Positions 4,992-16,220 of a DNA stretch of 64,000 bases are shown here, in pieces. Under the pieces are notes generated by a model, which made no database searches, was not told the origin of the DNA, and worked only from the letters and a program-made list of their open reading frames with translations. Source of the DNA: Mesorhizobium plurifarium. GTDB taxonomy: Bacteria > Pseudomonadota > Alphaproteobacteria > Rhizobiales > Rhizobiaceae. Numbering within the stretch: position 1 is the first letter of the stretch; each line of letters opens with the position of its first letter. The position numbers and the translations under genes are program-made. The stretch covers positions 186,165-250,164 of the forward strand of contig CCNB01000007.1 in NCBI GenBank assembly GCA_000824785.1. The letters are read 5' to 3'.

Positions 4992-6170
4992 TCAGTAGAC
5001 ATGTTCCTCGATCGGCTGGTTGTTGGCGATACGCTCGTAGCGGAAGGCCGAGAGATCGATGGAACGGTATTCGCCATAGGCAATGAGGTCGCTCACGCCG
5101 GAACCGGTCGCCGCGGCGTGCATCATGCCGTGACCGCTGAAGCCGGTGGCCAGCACGAAGTTCGGAATTTCCGGATGGGGCCCGATGATGCCGCTGTGGT
5201 CGAAGGTGTTGTACTCGTAGAGGCCTGCCCAGGCACGCAGCATGCGCAATTGTTCGAAGCCGGGCACGCGGTGCGCCAGGGCAGGCCAGATCAGCTCGTC
5301 GAACAGGTCGTAGTCCACATCGAGGCCAAAATCGTCCGGATCGTTCTCGCGCACCGGTGGAATGCCGCAGAGGAAGAGTTGCCCCTCCGGCCGCAGCCAG
5401 AAGCCGCTTGTATCGAAGACGAAAGGACAATTGTCGATCCGCGCCGGGCTTTCGAAGACGAAGACGCATCGCTTGCTGGGCACGACTGGGAGATGCGTGC
5501 CGGCCATCCGCGCAATGCCCGCGCTCCACGGACCGGCCGCGTTGATCACCATGCCGGCGGAAATACGTTCGCCATTGTCCAGCACCACTTCGCCGACCCT
5601 CTTTCGGTTAGCCATGGTCAGTCCGGTCACGGTCGCGGCACGATAGTCGACCTTCTGGGCGCGCGCCTTGCGGCGAAAAGCCTGCATCAGGCCAGGTCCG
5701 TCGAACCAGCCTTCGCAGCCGCGGCCGAATGAGCCGAGCGCCAGGTCCTGCGTGTTGAGCCAAGGGAAGCGTCGCGCCAGATCGGCCTGCTCGATCAGCT
5801 CGATATCGACACCCATATCGCGCTGAACGCGGTTCTTGGCGCGCTGCGCCTCGGCCCGCTCCGGCGTCGCCAGCACAAGATAGCCAGGTTCGTGCAGCCC
5901 GATGTCCGCGGGCTCGGCCCCGACCGCAAGCCGGGTGCCTACCTCGCGCAGAAAGTCGAGGCTGAATTTCGACATGGCGATGTTCGGCGGGGTGCCGAAC
6001 TGCTGGCGTATGGCGCTGGTCGACAGCGAAGAGGAAGAGGCGGTGTAGTAGGGGTCCCGCTCGATAACGGCGATGCTACCATCGAAATCCGGATTGGCGG
6101 AGAGGAAATAGGCAATCGAGCTGCCGACGACGCCTCCGCCGACGATCACCACATCGTAGTTTGCGCTCAT
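4992..6170 (-). CDS. FAD-dependent oxidoreductase, DAO family
   Basis: This 392-aa flavoenzyme has an N-terminal Rossmann motif VVIVGGGVVGSSIAYFL (residues 7-23) and an acidic residue at the end of strand 2 (AVIERD). Near the C-terminus GYATGFSGHGMMHAAATG-type sequence (ATGFSGHGMMHA) is the usual FAD-contacting stretch of the glycine/sarcosine/D-amino-acid oxidase family. It should oxidise a secondary or primary amine (N-methyl or D-amino acid) to an imine with FAD reduction. It is divergent from the aminotransferase at 6371, and the shared spacer carries two ATTGGATA sites. The substrate is not deducible. Confidence 0.85.
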   Translation of the reverse strand: MSANYDVVIVGGGVVGSSIAYFLSANPDFDGSIAVIERDPYYTASSSSLSTSAIRQQFGTPPNIAMSKFSLDFLREVGTRLAVGAEPADIGLHEPGYLVLATPERAEAQRAKNRVQRDMGVDIELIEQADLARRFPWLNTQDLALGSFGRGCEGWFDGPGLMQAFRRKARAQKVDYRAATVTGLTMANRKRVGEVVLDNGERISAGMVINAAGPWSAGIARMAGTHLPVVPSKRCVFVFESPARIDNCPFVFDTSGFWLRPEGQLFLCGIPPVRENDPDDFGLDVDYDLFDELIWPALAHRVPGFEQLRMLRAWAGLYEYNTFDHSGIIGPHPEIPNFVLATGFSGHGMMHAAATGSGVSDLIAYGEYRSIDLSAFRYERIANNQPIEEHVY

Positions 6171-6215
6171 TCCGGTCGCGTTCCCCTTGTCTCAAATGTC
6201 GTGGTTGCGGCAAAG

Positions 6216-6224
6216 ATTGGATAC
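6216..6224 (+). promoter_or_regulatory. Putative FCD-regulator operator (ATTGGATAC)
   Basis: ATTGGATAC sits 46 bases upstream of the flavin oxidase start. It is one of ten near-identical copies found only in intergenic spacers of this window. It faces the inverted copy at 6311-6319. Confidence 0.55.
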
Positions 6225-6310
6225 TTTTGTCCGCTGCCAAGCCCTTCAAGGACACTCATAACCTGGGCTAATGACGAGAAAAAGGGGTTTGACGCGAAAA
6301 TCAGAATACA

Positions 6311-6319
6311 TTATCCAAT
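6311..6319 (-). promoter_or_regulatory. Putative FCD-regulator operator (ATTGGATAA, inverted)
   Basis: TTATCCAAT on the plus strand (ATTGGATAA on the minus strand) lies 52 bases upstream of the aminotransferase start. The extended form ATACATTATCCAAT resembles the copies at 15400 and 15543. Together with 6216 it would allow one regulator to control both divergent genes. Confidence 0.55.
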
Positions 6320-6370
6320 TTTTACGCATCCGCTGCCGGCCGGGCCGCGCAGCCGTCCCAGGAGTGTTCA

Positions 6371-7573
6371 GTGGGTTTCATCGCGCCCCGTCTCGACGTC
6401 ATCAAGCCAAGTCCGAGCATGGCGGTCACGGCCCGCGCGATCGAGATGCGCGCGGCCGGCATCGACGTCATCAGCCTGAGCGCCGGCGAGCCGGATTTCC
6501 CGACGCCGGCGCATGTCGTCGAGGCGGCCTATGCGGCGATGCGCCGGGGAGAGACTCGCTATACGGCGGTGGACGGCACGGTGGCGCTGAAGAAAGCGGT
6601 GGCCGACAAGTTCAGGCGCGAGAACGGCCTCGACTACAGGCTGCCGGAAATCACTGTCGCCGGCGGTGCAAAGCAGATCATCTACAACGCCCTGCTGGCA
6701 ACGCTGGCGCCGGGCGACGAGGTGATCGTTCCCGCGCCCTATTGGGTTTCCTACATCGACATCGTGCTTCTGGGGGAAGGCAAGCCCGTGGTTGTTCCCT
6801 GCGGCGAGGAGCTTGGCTTCAAGCTCACGCCGTCTGCCTTACGGGCCGCCATCACCGGGCGCACGAAATGGCTGCTCATGAACACCCCGTCCAACCCGAC
6901 GGGCGCAGTCTATGGCCGTGACGAACTTGCCGCCTTGGCGGCAGTGCTGCTCGACCATCCGCATGTCCATGTGCTGACCGATGACATCTATGAGCACATC
7001 CTGTTCGATGGGCGCGCCTTCCACACGATCGCCAGTGTCGAGCCGCGGTTGAAGGAGCGTACGCTGACGGTCAACGGCGTCTCGAAAGCCTATGCCATGA
7101 CAGGCTGGCGGATCGGCTATGCCGGTGGGCCGGAACCGCTGATCCGCGCCATGGCGACGGTGCAGAGCCAGAGCACGTCGAACCCGTCGTCGATCTCGCA
7201 GGCCGCGACCATAGCCGCGCTGGACGGCCCGCAGGATTTCTTGGCGCCGCGCGCGCTCGAATTCCAGGCCCGGCGCGATCGCGCATTGGAGCTGCTGCGG
7301 GCAATCCCCGGCCTTTCCTGCCGGACGCCAGAAGGGGCCTTTTACCTCTATCCCGACTGCTCGGCCCTGATCGGCCGCCGGCGTCCGGACGGTTCCGTTG
7401 TCGGCAGCGACGACGATCTTTCGCTCTACCTGCTCGATCACGCGCGGGTGGCGGTGGTGCAGGGCTCGGCCTACGGCCTGTCGCCGCATTTCCGTATCTC
7501 CATAGCCACGTCGATGGACCTGATCGAGAAGGCGATCGGCCGCATCGCCGAGGCGGTCCAAGCGCTGCGGTAG
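6371..7573 (+). CDS. Class I pyridoxal-phosphate aminotransferase (aspartate aminotransferase-like)
   Basis: This 400-aa fold-type I aminotransferase of the AspC/aspartate family (subgroup I-beta/gamma) has the N-terminal SAGEPDFPTP motif, NTPSNPTGAVY, and the Schiff-base lysine K239 in SKAYAMTGWRIGY, followed by the substrate carboxylate-binding Arg. The GTG start at 6371 is supported by AGGAG at 6360-6364. It begins a rightward operon (aminotransferase, biotin carrier, biotin carboxylase, carrier-like, pxpA). A transaminase at the head of an oxoprolinase-like set suggests that the ring-opened product is a glutamate-like amino acid. Confidence 0.9.
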   Translation: MGFIAPRLDVIKPSPSMAVTARAIEMRAAGIDVISLSAGEPDFPTPAHVVEAAYAAMRRGETRYTAVDGTVALKKAVADKFRRENGLDYRLPEITVAGGAKQIIYNALLATLAPGDEVIVPAPYWVSYIDIVLLGEGKPVVVPCGEELGFKLTPSALRAAITGRTKWLLMNTPSNPTGAVYGRDELAALAAVLLDHPHVHVLTDDIYEHILFDGRAFHTIASVEPRLKERTLTVNGVSKAYAMTGWRIGYAGGPEPLIRAMATVQSQSTSNPSSISQAATIAALDGPQDFLAPRALEFQARRDRALELLRAIPGLSCRTPEGAFYLYPDCSALIGRRRPDGSVVGSDDDLSLYLLDHARVAVVQGSAYGLSPHFRISIATSMDLIEKAIGRIAEAVQALR

Positions 7574-7580
7574 AGCCGCG

Positions 7581-8030
7581 ATGGACCTGAACCTCGTCCG
7601 CGAACTTATCGATCTTGTCTCGCGCTCACCGATTGGCGAACTGCAGATAGAGCGCGACGGGATTCGCATCCGCATTGCCAGGCAGGTGTTGTCGCCCGCA
7701 TTCCAGACCCAATCGCCTACGCAGCCCGTTTCGGCTTCCGACGCGTCCGCCGCTTCGGGTCCAAGCCCCACCGTCGCGACCATTCCGCGGCATTCGATCC
7801 GCGCGCCGCTGACGGGCGTGTTCTATCGCTCCGCCGGCGAGGGCGAGCCACCGCTCGTCTCGGTAGGCGATCTGGTCGAGGAGGGGCAGAAGATCGGCGT
7901 CCTCGAAGCCATGAAGACATTCAACGTCGTGGAGGCCGATCGCGCCGGCAGGATTGTCGAGGTCGCGTTCGAGGACCATGCCGCCGTGCAGTCCGGCGAC
8001 GTGCTGTTCGTCCTGGAGGAGGCGGGTTGA
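7581..8030 (+). CDS. Biotin carboxyl carrier protein (AccB-like)
   Basis: This 149-aa carrier has an N-terminal helix ([24 protein letters not shown]) as in acetyl-CoA carboxylase BCCP, a Pro/Ala/Ser linker at about 50-70, and a C-terminal biotinyl domain with EAMKTFN. The biotin-accepting lysine is K112. It lies 7 bases after the aminotransferase and overlaps the biotin carboxylase. Because it sits with pxpA rather than with carboxyltransferase genes for acetyl-CoA, it is probably a dedicated paralog, not the housekeeping accB. Confidence 0.88.
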
Positions 8031-9403
8031 GCGCCATGTTCGATACCGTCCTTATCGCCAATCGCGGTGAGATCGCGCTGCGCATTCTGCGCGCCTGCCG
8101 CGATCTCGGCCTTCAGACGGTGGCGGCCTATTCGGAAGCCGATGCGAGCCTTCGTCATGTCGGGCTGGCGGACAAGGCGATCTGCATCGGGCCGGCGGCC
8201 TCGGCCGACAGCTATCTCAACGTCGCCGAGATCATCACCGCGGCGCAGCTCACAGGCGCAGGCGCGATCCATCCCGGCTACGGCTTCCTGTCGGAGAACG
8301 CCGCCTTCGCCGAGGCGGTGGAGGATGCCGGCCTTGTCTTCATCGGGCCGTCCGCGGCGGCGATCCGCACCATGGGCGACAAGGTTGCGGCCAAGCGGGC
8401 AATGATGGCTGCCGGCGTGCCCTGCGTTCCGGGTTCGGAAGACGCGCTGCCGCAGGACGAGCAAGCGGTGCGGGCCATCGCCCAAGCCGTCGGTTATCCG
8501 GTCATCGTCAAGGCAGCCGGCGGCGGCGGCGGGCGCGGCATGCGCATCGTGCGCGAGGAAGGCGCGTTGATGGAAGCCGTGGCATTGGCACGAGAGGAGG
8601 CCGGACGAGCCTTCGGCAACCCGCAAGTCTATCTGGAAAAATTCCTCGAGCATCCGCGCCATGTCGAGATCCAGATCCTGGCCGACCGGCATGCCGCGGC
8701 TGTCTGGCTCGGCGAGCGGGACTGCTCCATGCAGCGTCGCCACCAGAAGATCATCGAGGAAGCGCCGGCGCCCGGCATCGCTCGCGCGGCGATCGCCGGG
8801 ATCGGCGATCTTTGCGCCCGCGCCTGTGTCGAGATCGGCTACACGGGGGCGGGTACGTTCGAGTTCCTCTATGAGGACGGGCGTTTTTATTTCATCGAGA
8901 TGAATACCCGCGTGCAGGTGGAGCATCCGGTCACCGAGCTCATCACCGGCATCGACATCGTGCGCGAGCAGATCCGGATCGCTCAGGGCAAGCCTCTGTC
9001 CTTCAAGCAGGAAGACATACGCATCGAGGGCCACGCCGTCGAATGCCGCATCAACGCCGAGGACCCTTACAGCTTTCGGCCGCATCCGGGACGGGTCGAG
9101 CGCTGGACGCCGCCAGGCGGCCCGGGGATCCGCGTCGAGTCGCATCTCTACTCCGGCTACACCGTGCCGCCGCACTACGATTCCCTGGTCGCCAAGCTGC
9201 TCGCGCATGGCGCCACCCGGGCCGATGCGATCCGCAGGATGAAGGGCGCGCTGGCCGAGATGGAGACGGTCGGCATCGCCACCAACGCGCCGCTGCACGG
9301 CATGTTGATGGAGGAGCCAGGTTTCGCGGCCGGAGGTTTCGACATCCACCACCTGGAACGCCTGATCGAAGGCGGCCTGCTCGACGGACGAGCACAGCGA
9401 TGA
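8027..9403 (+). CDS. Biotin carboxylase (AccC-like)
   Basis: This 458-aa ATP-grasp enzyme carboxylates biotin on a carrier using ATP and bicarbonate. It shows the N-terminal [12 protein letters not shown] motif, the glycine-rich ATP loop [12 protein letters not shown] (about 160-172), the [12 protein letters not shown] motif, and [14 protein letters not shown] with catalytic residues. The length is normal for AccC. The TTG start at 8027 overlaps the upstream TGA and follows GGAGGAGG; an ATG at 8036 is the alternative. It is the energising partner of the carrier at 7581. The CO2 acceptor is unknown. Confidence 0.92.
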
Positions 9404-9792
9404 CGGCCGAGGAGATCGAGAGGCTTGCCGCATGGTGCGCGGCCGCGGGTGTCGGTGAGATCGAGCTGGCGGAGGCCGGCTTTTCGCTTTGCCTGCGTAT
9501 CCAGCCGGTCGGTCCTGCGCCGCGCGCGGCGGCGGGCGAAGCGCCGCAGGCCGAGGTTCTGAAGACGGTTCGCGCGCCGGGCGTCGGCGTGTTCCGTCTC
9601 GTTCATCCGACGACCGGCCATCCGGTCGTCGAACGCGGGCAGCGGGTCCGGAAGGGCGAGACTGTCGGCGTCCTGCAGATCGGCTCATGCCTCAAGGGCG
9701 TGGTTGCGCCGGCAGATGGCAAGCTGGGGGTTGCCTTGGCCGAGGATGGCGCGGTCGTCGGCTACGGCACACCGCTCTACGAGTTGCTGTGA
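9400..9792 (+). CDS. Biotinyl/lipoyl-domain protein lacking the biotin lysine
   Basis: This 130-aa protein has the BCCP layout: an N-terminal helix ([25 protein letters not shown]), a linker, then a hammerhead beta domain ending in [14 protein letters not shown]. Where a carrier has EAMK, this one reads [12 protein letters not shown], so the modified lysine is replaced by Ser or Gly; the Lys three residues on is not at the hairpin tip in the alignment made by eye. It overlaps the biotin carboxylase by ATGA and is followed by pxpA. It may be a structural or scaffold subunit rather than a carrier. It is probably a duplicate of the gene at 7581. Confidence 0.72.
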
Positions 9793-9814
9793 CATGAATT
9801 CTGGGGAAGTCGCC

Positions 9815-10585
9815 ATGACGGGCAGCGGGCTTGAAGTCGATATCAATTCGGACATGGGCGAAGGCTTCGGCGCCTACAGGCTGGGCGACGACGCGGCGAT
9901 CCTCGATATCGTGAGCTCGGCCAATGTCGCCTGCGGTTTCCACGCCGGCGACCCGGAGATCATGGCGGCGACCTTTTCCATGGCGCGAGCCAAGGGGGTC
10001 GCCGTCGGCGCGCATCCAAGCTTCGCCGATCTGTGGGGGTTCGGACGCCGCACCATTCCGCATTCGGCGGACGAGATCGAAAGGCTGGTCGCATACCAGA
10101 TCGGCGCAGCGCAGGCGCTTTCCGCCTATGCCGGACACCCGATCCGCTACGTGAAGGCGCATGGCGCGCTGGGCAACCTCACCCAGACCGATCGCGGCGT
10201 CGCCGAAGCCGTCACACGCGCCGTCAAGGCCGTCGACCCCAGCCTGATCTGCCTGGCGATTGCGCTCGGCTTCCAGGACAGGATCGCGCGCGAGGCAGGC
10301 TTGACCGTCAAGTCGGAGATATTCGCCGATCGCGCCTATACGCAAGAGGGGTTCCTGGTCTCGCGCAAGCTGGAGGGCGCTGTCATCCACGACGCCGCAG
10401 CGGCGGCGGAGCGGGTCGTGCGCATGGTCAGGCAGGGCGCGATCGAGACGATTTCCGGACAATTGCTGAAGACGCCCATCGATTCGATTTGCGTCCACAG
10501 CGACACGCCGGCGGCGGTCGCCATCGCCGCCCGCGTGCGCGCCGGGCTGGAACAGAGCGGCGTAAGGGTCAAGGCGTTCGCCTGA
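9815..10585 (+). CDS. pxpA: 5-oxoprolinase subunit A-like (LamB/YcsF family)
   Basis: This 256-aa LamB/YcsF protein has the hallmark opening VDINSDMGEGFG at about residues 8-19, then ANVACGFHAGDP, GAHPSFAD, and VKAHGALGN. Proteins of this family form the PxpABC complex that opens 5-oxoproline (pyroglutamate) to glutamate with ATP. The ATG at 9815 is chosen over 9794 because GGGGAAG at 9803-9809 is ideally placed. Its partners PxpB and PxpC are not adjacent; they lie 3.3 kb away on the opposite strand (12939-14581). A related lactam rather than 5-oxoproline is possible. Confidence 0.87.
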   Translation: MTGSGLEVDINSDMGEGFGAYRLGDDAAILDIVSSANVACGFHAGDPEIMAATFSMARAKGVAVGAHPSFADLWGFGRRTIPHSADEIERLVAYQIGAAQALSAYAGHPIRYVKAHGALGNLTQTDRGVAEAVTRAVKAVDPSLICLAIALGFQDRIAREAGLTVKSEIFADRAYTQEGFLVSRKLEGAVIHDAAAAAERVVRMVRQGAIETISGQLLKTPIDSICVHSDTPAAVAIAARVRAGLEQSGVRVKAFA

Positions 10586-10609
10586 GGGCCGGCCGCTCAC
10601 GGCTCACAG

Positions 10610-10624
10610 CGCCCGCGCCGGGCG
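10610..10624. terminator. Bidirectional hairpin between convergent pxpA and Ldh genes
   Basis: CGCCCG (10610-10615) and CGGGCG (10619-10624) form a compact GC-rich hairpin with a three-base loop, in the 40-base spacer between two convergent stop codons. No T-run follows, so it would act as a weak or Rho-assisted terminator. Confidence 0.4.
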
Positions 10625-10625
10625 T

Positions 10626-11660
10626 TCAGACGGCGTCGAGTCCCTGTTCGAGGAAGCGGTCGAGCTGTTCCATCTCCTGGAGCGTGAGGCCGATGCCGTC
10701 CCGTCTCGACTTCTCACGGGCGAGGAACCGCCTCTGCGAAGGCAGGCGCGCGCCCTGGCCGAGGATCGCCTCGAACAACGCTTCTGCCCGGGAGAAAGGA
10801 CTTCCAGGGCGACCGGCGGCGAAAGCTTCCGGCGACAGGGCGATGACCAGCTCGCCATGCTTCGGATAGAGCGTCGTGGTGCCGAGCAGATCGAGGGCCT
10901 CGCGGCTCGTCAGGTCGCCGAGCATGGCGCCGGCGAGCAGCTCGATCATGGTGCCCATGGCCGAGCCCTTGTGCCCGCCGAAGGAGAGCATGGCGCCGCC
11001 GAGCGCTGCTGCGGGGTCGGTCGTTGGCCTGCCGTCCGAATCGATCGCCCAGCCTTCCGGCAATTGTTTGCCGGCACGACGATGCAGCTCGATTTCGCCG
11101 CGCGCCGCGACTGAAGTGGCAAAGTCGAAGACATAGGGCGGATGCTCCTGGCGCGGCCAGCCGAAGGCGAAGGGATTGGTGCCAAGCAAGGGTCTTGAAC
11201 CACCCGTCGGTGCGACGGTCGCGTAGCTTGGACACATGGCTAGGCCAGCCAGACCGGCGTCCGCCAGCGCCTCGACCTCGACCCAGAGGGCTGAAAAATG
11301 AACCGCGTTGTTGATCGCCAATGCCGCGATGCCGGTCGCGCGCGCCCGCTCGACCAGCACGGGCAGGCCGAGCTCGAAGGCTGGATTGGCGAAGCCGCCT
11401 TTGGCGTCCACCTTCACGATTGCCGGCGCGTCCTGCGGCAGCAATTCGGGCACCGCCTTCGGCTCGGCCTTTCCGGCCTTGACGGTGCGCAGCGCGCCTT
11501 CGATGCGATAGATGCCGTGCGATTTGCAGGCGTCGCGTTCCCCGGCGACGATGGCGCGCGTGATCGCGCCGGCCTGGGCGGGGTTGAGCCCGGCCTTGCT
11601 GAAGATCGCCCCGACGCGCTCATGCAGGGCTTCGATGGTGAGGGCGGTTGTGCTGCTCAT
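10626..11660 (-). CDS. Malate/L-lactate dehydrogenase family (Ldh_2) oxidoreductase
   Basis: This 344-aa member of the non-Rossmann Ldh/YlbC/DpkA family uses NAD(P)H to reduce 2-oxo acids or cyclic imines. Recognisable pieces are CKSHGIYRIEGAL (H48), the NNAVHFSALW region with the catalytic His, GTNPFAFGWP, and GGHKGSAMGTMIELLAG at the nucleotide site. Members include delta-1-piperideine/pyrroline-2-carboxylate reductase, which would suit a cyclic-amino-acid pathway beside pxpABC, but malate, lactate or ureidoglycolate substrates are equally possible. It is the last gene of the leftward group starting at 15364. Confidence 0.85.
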   Translation of the reverse strand: MSSTTALTIEALHERVGAIFSKAGLNPAQAGAITRAIVAGERDACKSHGIYRIEGALRTVKAGKAEPKAVPELLPQDAPAIVKVDAKGGFANPAFELGLPVLVERARATGIAALAINNAVHFSALWVEVEALADAGLAGLAMCPSYATVAPTGGSRPLLGTNPFAFGWPRQEHPPYVFDFATSVAARGEIELHRRAGKQLPEGWAIDSDGRPTTDPAAALGGAMLSFGGHKGSAMGTMIELLAGAMLGDLTSREALDLLGTTTLYPKHGELVIALSPEAFAAGRPGSPFSRAEALFEAILGQGARLPSQRRFLAREKSRRDGIGLTLQEMEQLDRFLEQGLDAV

Positions 11661-11701
11661 TCTGGCCTTCGCGATTTGCCCGCAGAGCATGCGCCTGCGG
11701 G

Positions 11702-12874
11702 TCAGGAAAATTGCAGCTCGCTCGCGAAGGTTCTCAGATCCTGCGCGAGCAGGCCGGGTTGCTCGAAGGCTGCAAAATGCCCGCCGCATGGCATGGTTGT
11801 CCACCGGCGCACGGTGCGAAAAACCCGTTCGACCCAGCTTCTTGGCGGCATCGGCAATTCCTTCGGAAACAGCGCTACCGCGAGCGGAACCTCGATCCGC
11901 GCGCCAGGCGGAAATGTCAACGGCCGCACGCGGGTCTCCCAATAGAGGCGCATGGACGAGGCGACGGTTCGCGTGAACCAGTAGAGCGAGATGTTGGCGA
12001 GGACTTCGTCGCGGGAGAATGCGGCGTTGTCTAGATCGCCGTCGCAGTCGCTCCAGTCTCGGAACTTTTCGATCATCCATGCCGCCAGCCCGACGGGCGA
12101 ATCGGTGAGCCCGTAGGCAAGGGTCTGAGGGCGTGTTCCCTGAATGTGGCTGTAGGCGCCGTGGAGGTCCGCCCACCGGGCTTTCTCTCCCAGGAAGGCC
12201 CGTTCTTCCGTGGTGAGATCGCTGCCGGGGTCTGGATCATGCGATGGCGAATAGGAGCCGGGAATGAAATTCAGATGCACGCCGGCGAGATTGCCGGGAT
12301 AGGCATGCGCCAGGATGGTCGACACGCTGGCGCCGAGGTCTCCGCCCTGCGCCAGGTAGCGCTCATAGCCCAGCCGGTCCATCAGTTCCGCCCATAGGTC
12401 GGCGACGGCAAACAGGTTAAGGCCGGCCTTGGTCGGCCGTCTCGAAAAGCCGTATCCGGGGATCGAAGGGATCACGACGTTGAATGCATCCTCCTGTCTT
12501 CCGCCATTGGCAAGCGGATCGGACAGGAGCGGCAAAAGCCTGATGAATTCGCAAAAGCTGCCCGGCCAGCCATGGGTGAGAATGACCGTTCTGGCGGTTG
12601 GGACCGCGGCGCGGACATGGATGAAATGAATGGTCTGGCCACCGATATCGGTCTGGTAGTGCGGAAGGGCGTTCCAGGCGGCTTCGTGTTCGCGCCAGTC
12701 GAAGCCTGTGCGCCAGCGCTCAACGAATCGCCGCAATTCCTCCCGCTCCGTCCCTTGGGCCCAGCCGATTTCCTGCAATTGGTCCGGCTCTCGCCAGCCT
12801 GAAATGCGCTGCTTGAGGTCGTCGATTTCAGACTGTGCGATCTGGATCGTGAAGGGTCGGATATCCGTTGACAT
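11702..12874 (-). CDS. Epoxide hydrolase, alpha/beta-hydrolase with EHN domain
   Basis: This 390-aa protein has an N-terminal epoxide-hydrolase domain (about 1-100) followed by an alpha/beta hydrolase. The oxyanion motif HGWPG is at 101-105, the nucleophile Asp is D179 in QGGDLGAS, and the catalytic His is H366 in PCGGHFAAFEQP. This is the microsomal epoxide hydrolase layout and normal length. The ATG at 12874 is chosen because it begins the domain; the longer in-frame reading would run into pxpC. It sits between pxpC and the Ldh gene in one leftward transcription unit, which is odd for an oxoprolinase set. It may be a hydrolase for a different ring. Confidence 0.88.
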   Translation of the reverse strand: MSTDIRPFTIQIAQSEIDDLKQRISGWREPDQLQEIGWAQGTEREELRRFVERWRTGFDWREHEAAWNALPHYQTDIGGQTIHFIHVRAAVPTARTVILTHGWPGSFCEFIRLLPLLSDPLANGGRQEDAFNVVIPSIPGYGFSRRPTKAGLNLFAVADLWAELMDRLGYERYLAQGGDLGASVSTILAHAYPGNLAGVHLNFIPGSYSPSHDPDPGSDLTTEERAFLGEKARWADLHGAYSHIQGTRPQTLAYGLTDSPVGLAAWMIEKFRDWSDCDGDLDNAAFSRDEVLANISLYWFTRTVASSMRLYWETRVRPLTFPPGARIEVPLAVALFPKELPMPPRSWVERVFRTVRRWTTMPCGGHFAAFEQPGLLAQDLRTFASELQFS

Positions 12875-12938
12875 GTTCGCTCGCCGATATGGGTTGAGCC
12901 AATCGATATCGTTGCGGTTCTTGTCGTCGTTCCGGCCG

Positions 12939-13919
12939 TCATGCTGGTCGGAGGCGACCGGCGCTGATGTTCCGCGCGGCGACGAACGCGTCAAGCTGCT
13001 GCCTGGCAGTACGCAGTGCTTGGGTCGCCGCTTCGATCGAGACCGGCAAAAAACGCAAGCGCGCGCCGACCGGCGCTTGCGCGAGCCGCCAGAGATCGGC
13101 CTCGATCACGGTTGCGATTTTCGGGTAGCCGCCGCAGGTGTTGGCGTCGGCAAGCTGGATGATCGGTTGGCCGGATGGCGGCACCTGGACGGTACCGGGG
13201 ACGATGCCATGCGAGAGCAGCTCCCTTGGCGAGGCAAGCGAGAGCGTTTCTCCGGACAAACGATAGCCCATGCGATTGGCTTCGCTGGTGATCTTCCATT
13301 CGCTTCCGGTGAAGGCCGCATGCGCCTGCGCCGTGAAGCTGTGGAACTCGGCGGCGGGAAGCACCCTCAGTTCGATCGCAGAGGCGATAGCGTTGCCGGT
13401 GATTTGCCGCTCTTCCAGCGCCACGCCAAGCCCTGCTGGAGGAAGCGGGCACATCGCGGTGTTGAGCCGAAGCCGGTCGCCGCGCGCGAGGCCGCGCCCG
13501 GCCAACCCGCCGAAACCAGCTTTCGCATCCGTCGCGCGCGATCCCATGACGGATGGCAGGTCGAGCCCGCCGGCGAAGGCGACGTAGGAACGCGCGCCTG
13601 CGCGCGGCGCTTCCACAAGAAGCGTCTCGCCCGCGCGGATGGCGGTTGCCCACCAGGGCGGACACCGCCGATCATCGATACGGATCGGGCAGTCGGCTCC
13701 CGTAATGGCCAGCGCGGTGTCGACATGTGCCTTGAGCCGGAAGGGATGGAGCGCGATCTCGAGCCCCGCGGCCGATCGGTCATTGCCCAGCATGAGATTG
13801 GCGATCGCCAGCGCCTGGCTGTCCATCGCGCCGCCATGGCTGATCCCGAGCGACAGATGGCCCGGACGGCCGAGGTCCTGGACAGTGTTCGGAAGACCGG
13901 TGGTCAGGATCTCGATCAT
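12939..13919 (-). CDS. pxpC: 5-oxoprolinase subunit C-like (biotin-dependent carboxyltransferase fold)
   Basis: This 326-aa AHS2/KipA-type protein is related to the C-terminal half of the urea carboxylase carboxyltransferase. It opens with MIEILTTGLPNTVQDLGRPGH and SHGGAMDSQALAIAN, both diagnostic, then SYVAFAGGLDLPSVMGSRATD and GYPKIATVIEADL. It overlaps pxpB by 4 bases, consistent with a heteromer. Given the biotin carboxylase and carrier encoded 4-6 kb away, the biotin-dependent ancestry of this fold is worth noting. Whether carboxybiotin is really used is unknown. Confidence 0.88.
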   Translation of the reverse strand: MIEILTTGLPNTVQDLGRPGHLSLGISHGGAMDSQALAIANLMLGNDRSAAGLEIALHPFRLKAHVDTALAITGADCPIRIDDRRCPPWWATAIRAGETLLVEAPRAGARSYVAFAGGLDLPSVMGSRATDAKAGFGGLAGRGLARGDRLRLNTAMCPLPPAGLGVALEERQITGNAIASAIELRVLPAAEFHSFTAQAHAAFTGSEWKITSEANRMGYRLSGETLSLASPRELLSHGIVPGTVQVPPSGQPIIQLADANTCGGYPKIATVIEADLWRLAQAPVGARLRFLPVSIEAATQALRTARQQLDAFVAARNISAGRLRPA

Positions 13920-14581
13920 TGCTCTACGCCCGCAATCTCGAATTGGATCTTGTCTCCCGGCCTCAGCAGCACAGGCGATTGCGCCTCGATATCGAAGAGC
14001 CTCACGTCGGTGTGGCCAATGATGTGCCATCCCGACGGGGCGGTCATCGGCATGATGCCCGCCTGCGCACCGCCGATGATGACGGCGCCTTCGGCCACTT
14101 TCAGGCGGGGGTTCTTGCGCCGTGGCCAGGTGAGCCGCGGGTCGAGACCGGACAGGTAAGGAAAGCCCGGCATGGCCCCGATAGCGGCGACCGAATAGGT
14201 CGCGGCCGCGTGACGATCGACTGTCTCTTCCAGCGACAGCCCGCAATGCGCGGCCCAGCCAGCGAGGTCTTCGCCGCGCGAGCCGCCGTAATGCACGGGA
14301 ATCCGGTGCAAGGTGCCGGTGGCTGTTTGCGGATCGGTGCCGGCCCAAAGCGATTGCAGTTGCTCGCCGACACGCGATGCGTCCGTAACGAGCGGGTCGA
14401 AGAGCACCAGCAGGTTGTTCATGCCGGGGACCGTCTCACGCACGCCGTCGAGGCCTCGTGCGGCTTCGGCAACAGCCCAGACCAACTCTTGAACGGCGTC
14501 GTCGAAGCTTGCCTGCGCGCCGTCGAGAAGCAGCGCGCCTGATCCCGCAAGGCTGATGCGCGGCGCCGGCCCAATGGTCAT
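13916..14581 (-). CDS. pxpB: 5-oxoprolinase subunit B-like (AHS1/KipI family)
   Basis: This 221-aa protein of the allophanate hydrolase subunit 1 / KipI family has the GMNNLLVLFDP strand near 52-62, IPVHYGG near 93, and the conserved GAMPGFPYLSGLDPRL and PSGWHIIGHTDVRLFD motifs at about 137-195. It normally binds PxpC and, with PxpA, couples ATP hydrolysis to lactam opening. Start and stop codons interlock with pxpC (ATGA) and it lies 6 bases after the SDR gene. The older annotation name allophanate hydrolase would be misleading here because no urea carboxylase gene is present. Confidence 0.88.
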   Translation of the reverse strand: MTIGPAPRISLAGSGALLLDGAQASFDDAVQELVWAVAEAARGLDGVRETVPGMNNLLVLFDPLVTDASRVGEQLQSLWAGTDPQTATGTLHRIPVHYGGSRGEDLAGWAAHCGLSLEETVDRHAAATYSVAAIGAMPGFPYLSGLDPRLTWPRRKNPRLKVAEGAVIIGGAQAGIMPMTAPSGWHIIGHTDVRLFDIEAQSPVLLRPGDKIQFEIAGVEQ

Positions 14582-15584: not shown

Positions 15585-16220
15585 ATGGCAGGCGGGCAAC
15601 GGGAAGGTGAACTGGTCGACGCGTTCCGCGTCTTTGCCACGCCGTTGATCAGCGACAATCTCGCCCGCGTGCCCGGCGCTGTCGGGCTGCGACCGTTCCA
15701 CAAGATCGACGGCATCATGGTCGGACGGGCGCTGACAGTGAGGACGCGCCCGGGCGATAACCAGTTCATCCACCGCGCGCTCGACCTGGTAAAGCCGGGC
15801 GATGTCATTGTCGTCGATGGCGGCGGTTACGAAGGGCGGGCGCTCGTCGGCGAGATCATGACAAGCCTCGCTGCCTCACGCGGCGCGGCCGGCATCGTCA
15901 TCGACGGAGCCATCCGCGATGCTGGCGCCATCGGCCGCAATCCATTTCCCTGCTTCGCGCGATCGGCCATCCATCTCGGTCCCTACAAGGACGGTCCCGG
16001 GGCCATCAATGTTGCGGTCTCGGTGGGCGGAATGGTGGTCGGTCCCGGCGATATCGTCATGGGCGACGAGGATGGCGTCGTTGCGTTTCCGCTCGAAGGG
16101 GCGGTGGCCCTGCTGGCAGCCGTCAAGGCGCAGGAAGCGCGCGAAGCCGACATCATGCAGAGCATCAAGGAGAACCGTTACCAGGGCGCCTATGCCCAGG
16201 CTTCGGCCAGCAGCCATTGA
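15585..16220 (+). CDS. RraA-like protein (HMG/CHA aldolase superfamily)
   Basis: This 211-aa protein of the RraA / 4-hydroxy-4-methyl-2-oxoglutarate aldolase fold has the signature glycine-rich stretch DVIVVDGGGYEGRALVGEI (residues about 66-84) and GIVIDGAIRDAG with the catalytic Arg-Asp pair at about 112-113. Catabolic members cleave or decarboxylate 4-hydroxy-2-oxo acids using a divalent metal; others bind RNase E. In this setting a small catabolic lyase is more likely than an RNase regulator. GGAGG lies just upstream of the ATG. A second family member is at 58166. Confidence 0.82.
   Translation: MAGGQREGELVDAFRVFATPLISDNLARVPGAVGLRPFHKIDGIMVGRALTVRTRPGDNQFIHRALDLVKPGDVIVVDGGGYEGRALVGEIMTSLAASRGAAGIVIDGAIRDAGAIGRNPFPCFARSAIHLGPYKDGPGAINVAVSVGGMVVGPGDIVMGDEDGVVAFPLEGAVALLAAVKAQEAREADIMQSIKENRYQGAYAQASASSH

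Follow-up and report, generated by a model that had tools for sequence, protein, structure and literature searches.

Why should the genes of a 5-oxoprolinase share an operon with a biotin carboxylase and a biotin carrier? The question is raised by a 64,000-nucleotide stretch of Mesorhizobium plurifarium DNA (assembly GCA_000824785.1, contig CCNB01000007.1, positions 186,165 to 250,164 of the forward strand; hereafter the window), in which pxpA belongs to an operon headed by an aminotransferase gene, and pxpB and pxpC lie nearby on the opposite strand. The original prediction placed pxpA fifth in this operon, with the aminotransferase, a carrier and a full AccC-like carboxylase, and considered a carboxylation-driven opening of a lactam conceivable. 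The gene content that it described was borne out by the open reading frames and their Pfam matches, but it left undescribed the fourth gene, accB2, which encodes a paralog of the biotin carboxyl carrier protein (BCCP) lacking the biotin-accepting lysine. We see an even chance that the product of the operon is a split, biotin-dependent carboxylase/hydrolase of lactams, comparable to urea carboxylase plus its hydrolase, in which AccB2 would serve, without biotin, as an assembly or docking subunit. The genes at issue are as follows.

6371-7573, plus strand: operon gene 1, pyridoxal-phosphate aminotransferase, aspartate-transaminase-like (PF00155, E=7.7e-76; NF004769, 597 bits, just missing the cut-off of 617)
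7581-8030, plus strand: AccB1, biotin carboxyl carrier with EAMK at K112 (PF00364, E=4.1e-16)
8027-9403, plus strand: AccC, canonical biotin carboxylase (TIGR00514, 694.6 bits, cut-off 626.5; PDB 4MV1, E=3.8e-197 over residues 3-446)
9400-9792, plus strand: AccB2, gene four, 130 aa, BCCP paralog without the biotin-accepting lysine (S96 is aligned with K112 of AccB1)
9794-10585, plus strand, start at 9794 or 9815: PxpA, LamB/YcsF family (PF03746, 309.5 bits; NF003814, 352.7 bits, cut-off 226)
12939-13919, minus strand: PxpC, carboxyltransferase-fold subunit, CT_A_B (PF02626, E=7.8e-90; YbgK of PDB 5DUD, E=4.5e-78; urea carboxylase 3VA7, E=3.9e-31)
13916-14581, minus strand: PxpB, carboxyltransferase-fold subunit, CT_C_D (PF02682, E=1.5e-65; TIGR00370, 170.6 bits, cut-off 145.6; YbgJ of PDB 5DUD, E=1.7e-45)

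The accB1/accC, accC/accB2 and pxpB/pxpC pairs each overlap by 4 bp, and gaps of 7 bp precede accB1 and 1 bp precede pxpA (22 bp if translation starts at 9815), spacing that makes pxpA the fifth gene of one tight operon. Residues 3-446 of AccC align with Haemophilus biotin carboxylase, including the glycine-rich loop and two further segments of 12 and 16 residues, which we take to be the sites of the catalytic residues. The matches of PxpC to PF02626 and to 3VA7 uphold the carboxyltransferase fold of urea carboxylase that had been attributed to it.

AccB2 scores 21.9 bits against the Pfam carrier profile (cut-off 22.1) and 34.6 against the NCBIfam BCCP model (cut-off 115.2). At the EAMK region it reads LQIGSCLKG, and in an alignment with E. 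coli BCCP the EAMK segment falls on QIGS, which puts serine 96 at the position of the biotin-accepting lysine. The gene was followed through 57 loci: 14 of the Mesorhizobium type (the window, L042-L053 and L055), three reached via pxpA (L127, L128 and L131), 21 from plasmids and 19 from searches of two families. A few of these are near copies, and L165 and L187, which share an AccB2 tail, were both counted; L057, a repeat of L042, was left out, as were L004, L005 and L006, short copies of other loci. The loci are a sample, one AccB2 query having matched 177 plasmid records, with 21 records opened from three such queries. E[AV]MK is missing from AccB2 in all 57, and the aligned residue is not lysine in any of 34 rows; in L131, L172 and L184 a lysine stands one residue beyond the aligned biotin position. 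PxpA is encoded in the same stretch as AccB2 at every one of the 57 loci, 53 of which were located via AccB2 and not via PxpA. A carrier bearing E[AV]MK occurs at 52 loci (the exceptions being L048, at a contig end, L128, L169, L170 and L171), and AccC likewise at 52 (all except L151, L128, L169, L170 and L171). At the edge of its stretch L171 has an ESMK carrier domain, and in L169 the start of an AccC-like gene lies 7.6 kb away.

A search with AccB2 alone matched 46 of 150 genomes, with long, strong matches only in the window genome (G000), G105 and G087; the many weak matches are probably ordinary AccB and were set aside unopened, as were hits at E. coli and lactobacillus accB genes in another search. 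AccB2 was found in 4 of 198 genomes of family f79, by our assignment probably enterobacterial, and in 17 of 149 genomes of the other family searched. When the L128 locus was compared with E. coli genomes in a distant search, 5,367 records matched, none over more than 80% of the query, and the five listed were nac matches of 6% coverage. Public annotations call AccB2 an acetyl-CoA carboxylase, a biotin attachment protein, a biotin/lipoyl-containing protein or simply a hypothetical protein.

Purifying selection acts on AccB2. In comparisons of the window with four Mesorhizobium loci, its ratio of nonsynonymous to synonymous substitution rates (dN/dS) is 0.15-0.31, compared with 0.17-0.25 for AccB1, 0.07-0.13 for AccC and 0.05-0.08 for PxpA; its frame is uninterrupted in the 57 loci examined, and identity to the window copy is 22-40% outside the Mesorhizobium-type loci. 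The protein is predicted to keep the BCCP fold: an AlphaFold2 model of the window copy from a 17-sequence input has a mean predicted local distance difference test score of 80.5 (89-94 in the carrier domain), with an N-terminal helix and two strands, and the tip of a hairpin (residues 95-96) at the place that biotinyl-lysine would take. Foldseek ranked the E. coli biotinyl domain 1BDO first for this model, and also returned 4HR7 (BCCP of the E. coli complex of biotin carboxylase and BCCP) and 9A87 (Arabidopsis BCCP1). A tree of 39 carriers has a branch, supported at 100/98, that splits 17 of 18 AccB2 rows from the AccB1 rows; the L131 AccB2 is poorly placed (43/57), and the tree does not establish a single origin of all AccB2.

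The association of AccC with pxpA extends well beyond the window. PxpA was searched for in 199 genomes of the phylum, 71 of which were positive at 80 places, and 76 of these places were examined as stretches; at the other four (three in the window genome and one in a genome of the same genus) AccC is also near pxpA. Among the 76 stretches, which reach about 9 kb from pxpA, AccC is present in 18, always on the pxpA strand and at distances of 281-2560 bp. By a hand estimate based on the 7 biotin-carboxylase genes of one 7.14 Mb genome, that of the window, about 1.4 such stretches are expected by chance, and the linkage is not chance. The 18 loci fall into three layouts. In layout I (11 loci) PxpB and PxpC share one frame in 10 of the 11 and a long AccC is next, its frame also holding EAMK in six. 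Layout II (five loci, of which one is truncated after accC) reads pxpA-accB-accC-pxpB-pxpC, with a short accB bearing EVMK. Layout III, represented by L127 and L131, has two carrier genes like the window. The short carriers of layout II, about 80 aa with EVMK in place of EAMK, were seen in L054, L132, L133, L134, L136 and L137. An apparent fusion of PxpA, PxpB and PxpC in L079 was rejected as a reading-frame artefact. Conservation of the carrier-carboxylase-pxpA order, proposed as a check on the original prediction, was found: the order AccC-gene four-pxpA recurs in 12 of 12 loci from a search of genome contigs, 11 of them labelled Mesorhizobium, and in a further genome from the same order, pxpB and pxpC are in the same stretch for 11 of these 13, and EAMK is retained in 13 of 13 aligned AccB1 rows, window included. 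In 14 control genomes PF03746 occurs in five and PF02785 in 13, including those five, a co-occurrence that is compatible with borrowing of AccBC and says little.

The genes around AccB2 are arranged in several ways. In annotated plasmids of Rhizobiaceae (Shinella, Rhizobium, Agrobacterium larrymoorei, Sinorhizobium and Allorhizobium) and in one record labelled Roseateles, the order is accB1-accC-accB2-pxpB-pxpC-pxpA-aminotransferase; next come nac or a LysR gene, then an SDR gene and genes of an amino-acid ABC transporter. The same seven genes open the set in the unannotated plasmids L149, L152, L153, L158 and L164. AccB2 follows pxpC in Bradyrhizobium, Microvirga, Variovorax and Burkholderia. 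It is last in the set in the family of L131 and L172-L187, where an NRAMP-type transporter is found in 16 of 17 stretches (it was not detected in L178), and the arrangement in Moraxella osloensis is the same. Across 14 annotated stretches no carboxyltransferase besides PxpC is annotated; seven further, unannotated plasmid stretches were scanned for pxp, acc and aminotransferase genes only. L154 (Bradyrhizobium sp. 62B plasmid p1, 4540-10900) has a single accB2 and a single pxpA with a pxpB/pxpC pair on either side, the two pairs lying on opposite strands.

PxpB and PxpC evolve in correlation with AccC and both carriers. Distances were compared for 48 of 52 loci with all six proteins (L048, L052, L151 and L161 lack one in their stretch; L055 was not entered, and L154 was represented by the best-scoring of its two pxpB/pxpC pairs). 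Pairwise distances of PxpB, PxpC, AccC, AccB1 and AccB2 intercorrelate with r of 0.76-0.94, and with those of PxpA at 0.37-0.54, values that are descriptive; the pairs are non-independent. AccB1 has its highest partial correlation with PxpC (0.53), and AccB2 does too (0.34, followed by AccC at 0.25). Trees agree with the distances: the window PxpC clusters with those of L127 and L128 and the window PxpA does not. PxpA looks like an exchangeable hydrolase on a steadier core of PxpBC, AccC and carriers.

The window genome contains two PxpC genes, each near an AccC. The second belongs to a complete pxp/acc set of layout II at about C7:48-54 kb, with two pxpA genes; read by eye (L054, C7:43000-62000, about 5042-11330), its order is pxpA, a divergent LysR gene, the second pxpA, short accB with EVMK, accC, pxpB, pxpC and genes resembling those of ABC transporters. 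A separate AccB/AccC pair lies on contig C6, so that the operon pair is not the only one in the genome, and AccA/AccD-like matches are found elsewhere. By our own assignment, the three long PF01039 carboxyltransferases and two shorter AccA/AccD-like matches fit the remaining biotin carboxylases by count.

The operon can be compared with several described systems. (PMC numbers here and below refer to excerpts of the papers.) With the PxpABC systems, namely E. coli YbgJKL, B. subtilis YcsF-KipI-KipA and C. glutamicum PxpTABC, it has the PxpA, PxpB and PxpC families in common, PF03746, PF02682 and PF02626 all being encoded together far above cut-off; in addition it has AccB1, AccC, AccB2 and the aminotransferase. 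Among the NCBIfam models, PxpB passes TIGR00370 (170.6 against 145.6), PxpC scores 311 against the 500 of NF045499, and PxpA passes the subfamilies NF003814 and NF003816 and none of three equivalogs. With urea carboxylase (KlUC, 3VA7) and allophanate hydrolase it shares the carboxyltransferase domains, a biotin carboxylase and a biotin carrier, with a hydrolase to follow. However, urea carboxylase is a single chain of about 1200 aa that acts on urea and works with another hydrolase, whereas the window encodes these domain families as separate proteins, with PxpA as the hydrolase and an extra carrier without the lysine; AccC (470 bits) and PxpC (164) do not reach the cut-off of 1304 of the single-chain model TIGR02712. 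LamA is urea-carboxylase-like. In Aspergillus nidulans, lamA and lamB act in lactam catabolism (PMC8016842), and B. subtilis ycsF and kipA have been related to lamB and to yeast urea amidolyase, respectively (PMC3412718). A 2011 paper remarked that the split carboxyltransferase genes had not been studied (PMC3199775).

Pxp genes in combination with those of a biotin carboxylase and its carrier are already in print: a six-gene operon of S. aureus, whose promoter is bound by CcpE, includes pxpB, pxpC, pxpA, accB and accC (PMC11315280). That excerpt mentions a single accB, without a second carrier or any test of a joint function. AccB2 is apparently undescribed, and its nearest described analog is the plant BADC subunit of plastid acetyl-CoA carboxylase, likewise a BCCP homolog without the biotinylation motif that acts beside biotin carboxylase and BCCP (PMC11926652). 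In the window AccB2, with its predicted BCCP fold, is also encoded beside a biotin carboxylase and a biotinylatable BCCP. It differs from BADC, which was called unique to the plant enzyme (PMC11926652), in being bacterial, in lying in pxp operons with no adjacent acetyl-CoA carboxyltransferase, and in being known here from its sequence and a model. Lactam opening that depends on ATP and bicarbonate has a precedent in caprolactamase CapAB, for which carboxyphosphate mechanisms were considered; CapAB consists of hydantoinase/oxoprolinase-family proteins that are not similar to PxpABC, and the excerpt mentions no biotin carrier (PMC8453981). The two-component 5-oxoprolinase of P. putida (64 and 51 kDa plus 82 kDa; PMC8453981) was considered as a possible AccC/PxpBC-type enzyme and set aside, the sizes fitting only loosely. 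Among the matches listed in the open-license PMC literature, no AccBC-dependent 5-oxoprolinase and no bacterial BCCP without the lysine were found.

How might these parts work together? We infer a pathway in which AccC would carboxylate the biotin of AccB1 at the expense of ATP and bicarbonate, and PxpB-PxpC, with their urea-carboxylase-type domains, would pass the carboxyl group on to a lactam of the 5-oxoproline type, at its ring nitrogen or oxygen. Hydrolysis of this activated ring by PxpA would then yield a glutamate-type amino acid, for the aminotransferase to convert to a 2-oxo acid. By analogy with urea carboxylase and allophanate hydrolase, the intermediate would be an N-carboxy lactam, and its opening by PxpA would give an N-carboxy amino acid, from which CO2 would be lost. 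AccB2 may help to assemble AccC, AccB1 and PxpBC or dock them together, in the manner proposed for plant BADC. The linkage of AccC with PxpABC and the published S. aureus set make carboxylation-driven lactam opening plausible. Also in its favor are the recurrence of that linkage in three layouts, the canonical AccC, the CT_A_B and CT_C_D domains that PxpBC shares with urea carboxylase, the separate AccB/AccC on contig C6, the nearness of both PxpC genes of the window genome to an AccC, the correlated distances of PxpBC, AccC and the two carriers, the partial correlation of AccB1 with PxpC, and the NRAMP-type transporter in the L131 and L172-L187 operons, which is related to C. glutamicum PxpT, a protein essential to growth on 5-oxoproline (PMC13274462).

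A number of observations weigh against this pathway, and the original prediction is upheld in part. AccC is absent from 58 of the 76 pxpA stretches. In L151 (Agrobacterium vitis T60/94 pAt, 7463-8387) both carriers are present with no accC between them and a gap of about 44 bp instead; the related L167 (Allorhizobium ampelinum S4) has accC where L151 has the gap. The four f79 loci (L128, L169, L170 and L171) have AccB2, PxpABC and the aminotransferase with no adjacent accB or accC, so that AccB2 would work there with housekeeping AccB/AccC, or PxpBC itself would be its partner; elsewhere in the L128 genome are three biotin-carboxylase genes, of which one lies in a 459-aa frame and the others in frames exceeding 1200 aa. 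The partial correlation between AccB2 and AccB1 is negative (-0.26), which does not favor a tight pairing of the two, and the correlated distances may reflect mere co-inheritance of the operon. In the PDB the nearest match to the window PxpBC is E. coli YbgJK, a system to our knowledge without a dedicated AccBC. PxpB and PxpC have been assumed to phosphorylate 5-oxoproline, and in C. glutamicum pxpTABC is needed for growth on 5-oxoproline, with no linked AccBC named in the excerpt (PMC13274462); work cited in PMC8453981 credits ATP hydrolysis to co-purified PxpB and PxpC.

Several of these points would be expected if PxpABC were here an ordinary ATP-dependent 5-oxoprolinase that acts via phosphorylation, with AccB/AccC feeding another reaction of the same pathway and co-localized by shared regulation. 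That account, which also fits the position of the window PxpC clade inside a supported set of 16 rows (99/98) that includes AccC-free members, we regard as possible though doubtful: PxpC is the only annotated carboxyltransferase in the 14 annotated stretches, the linkage of AccC with PxpBC recurs in differing orders and fusions, and AccB1 co-varies most with PxpC. Very unlikely, in our estimate, is a role unrelated to lactams in which the extra AccB/AccC supplements acetyl-CoA carboxylase, the case that was to overturn the original prediction. AccC does exceed the acetyl-CoA carboxylase equivalog cut-off (694.6 against 626.5 for TIGR00514), and the S. aureus paper files accBC under fatty-acid synthesis (PMC11315280), but both AccB1 (99.1) and AccB2 (34.6) miss the AccB equivalog cut-off of 115.2, and the operon AccB/AccC stays with pxp genes in loci of several genera. 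The separate AccB/AccC on contig C6 and the AccA/AccD-like matches argue further against such service, though sharing is possible.

AccB2 itself could act as an inhibitor or regulator, in competition with AccB1 for AccC, a role that we hold to be unlikely. In the model it keeps the carrier fold and, at the N terminus, a region of helix and strands like that of AccB, while lacking the lysine, and in vivo studies led to a proposed inhibitory role for plant BADC, but the same paper favors assembly (PMC11926652), and AccB2 occurs without adjacent AccB1 and AccC. That it is a functionless, decaying duplicate is scarcely credible. The lysine is lost and identity outside the Mesorhizobium-type loci is low, but its dN/dS in the four comparisons is similar to that of AccB1, its frame stays open in all 57 loci, and 17 of its 18 tree rows are separated from AccB1 by the strongly supported branch described above.

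The split carboxylase/hydrolase reading could be carried further. PxpBC would then be a carboxyltransferase in every PxpABC system, and prokaryotic 5-oxoprolinase a disguised split biotin carboxylase/hydrolase; systems without their own AccB/AccC would borrow carboxybiotin from acetyl-CoA carboxylase, with AccB2 as the adaptor that recruits biotin carboxylase and BCCP to PxpBC, the AccB2-only f79 loci being an example. We consider this extension quite improbable. The window PxpABC subunits match only LamB/YcsF and carboxyltransferase domains in Pfam, which raises the question where ATP enters the "ATP-dependent" PxpABC reaction, and a layout with its own ATP-using biotin carboxylase makes it directly testable. 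AccB2, as a conserved bacterial look-alike of a type of subunit called unique to plants, may in addition reveal what dead carriers do.

The neighborhood of the operon bears on its substrate. The following features flank or separate the genes listed above.

152-2807: two half-size thiamine pyrophosphate (TPP)-enzyme genes, then an aldehyde dehydrogenase
4992-6170, minus strand: flavin adenine dinucleotide-dependent DAO-family oxidoreductase, divergent from the operon, a neighbor kept in Mesorhizobium-type loci (PF01266, E=3.1e-57)
10626-11672, minus strand, start approximate: Ldh_2-family dehydrogenase (PF02615, E=5.2e-91)
11702-12880, minus strand, start approximate: epoxide-hydrolase-family protein, between the Ldh_2 gene and pxpC (PF06441, E=4.4e-34)
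15585-16220, plus strand: RraA-like aldolase (PF03737, E=2.3e-44)

The second TPP-enzyme half is upstream in 13 of 15 Mesorhizobium-type loci (all except L048, at its contig end, and L052), and the two halves with the aldehyde dehydrogenase possibly carry out a 2-oxo-acid decarboxylation step of the same pathway. A scan of the 15 Mesorhizobium-type loci found a proline-racemase-family gene near pxpA in seven, L168 (10260-11285), L046, L047, L048, L050, L051 and L052, and none in the window; L055 has a 45-residue piece of one. These neighbors, together with the aminotransferase, the RraA, Ldh_2 and DAO-family genes, suggest a proline- or glutamate-derived candidate substrate. The RraA aldolase and the aminotransferase also invite the speculation that the substrate is legume-specific, perhaps a 4-substituted 5-oxoproline; no paper with the two compound names considered stood among the matches listed. 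An aminotransferase homolog is present in 35 of 39 stretches scanned and partial in L055, where the match (7437-7619) spans 61 residues only and the gene is seemingly truncated or replaced.

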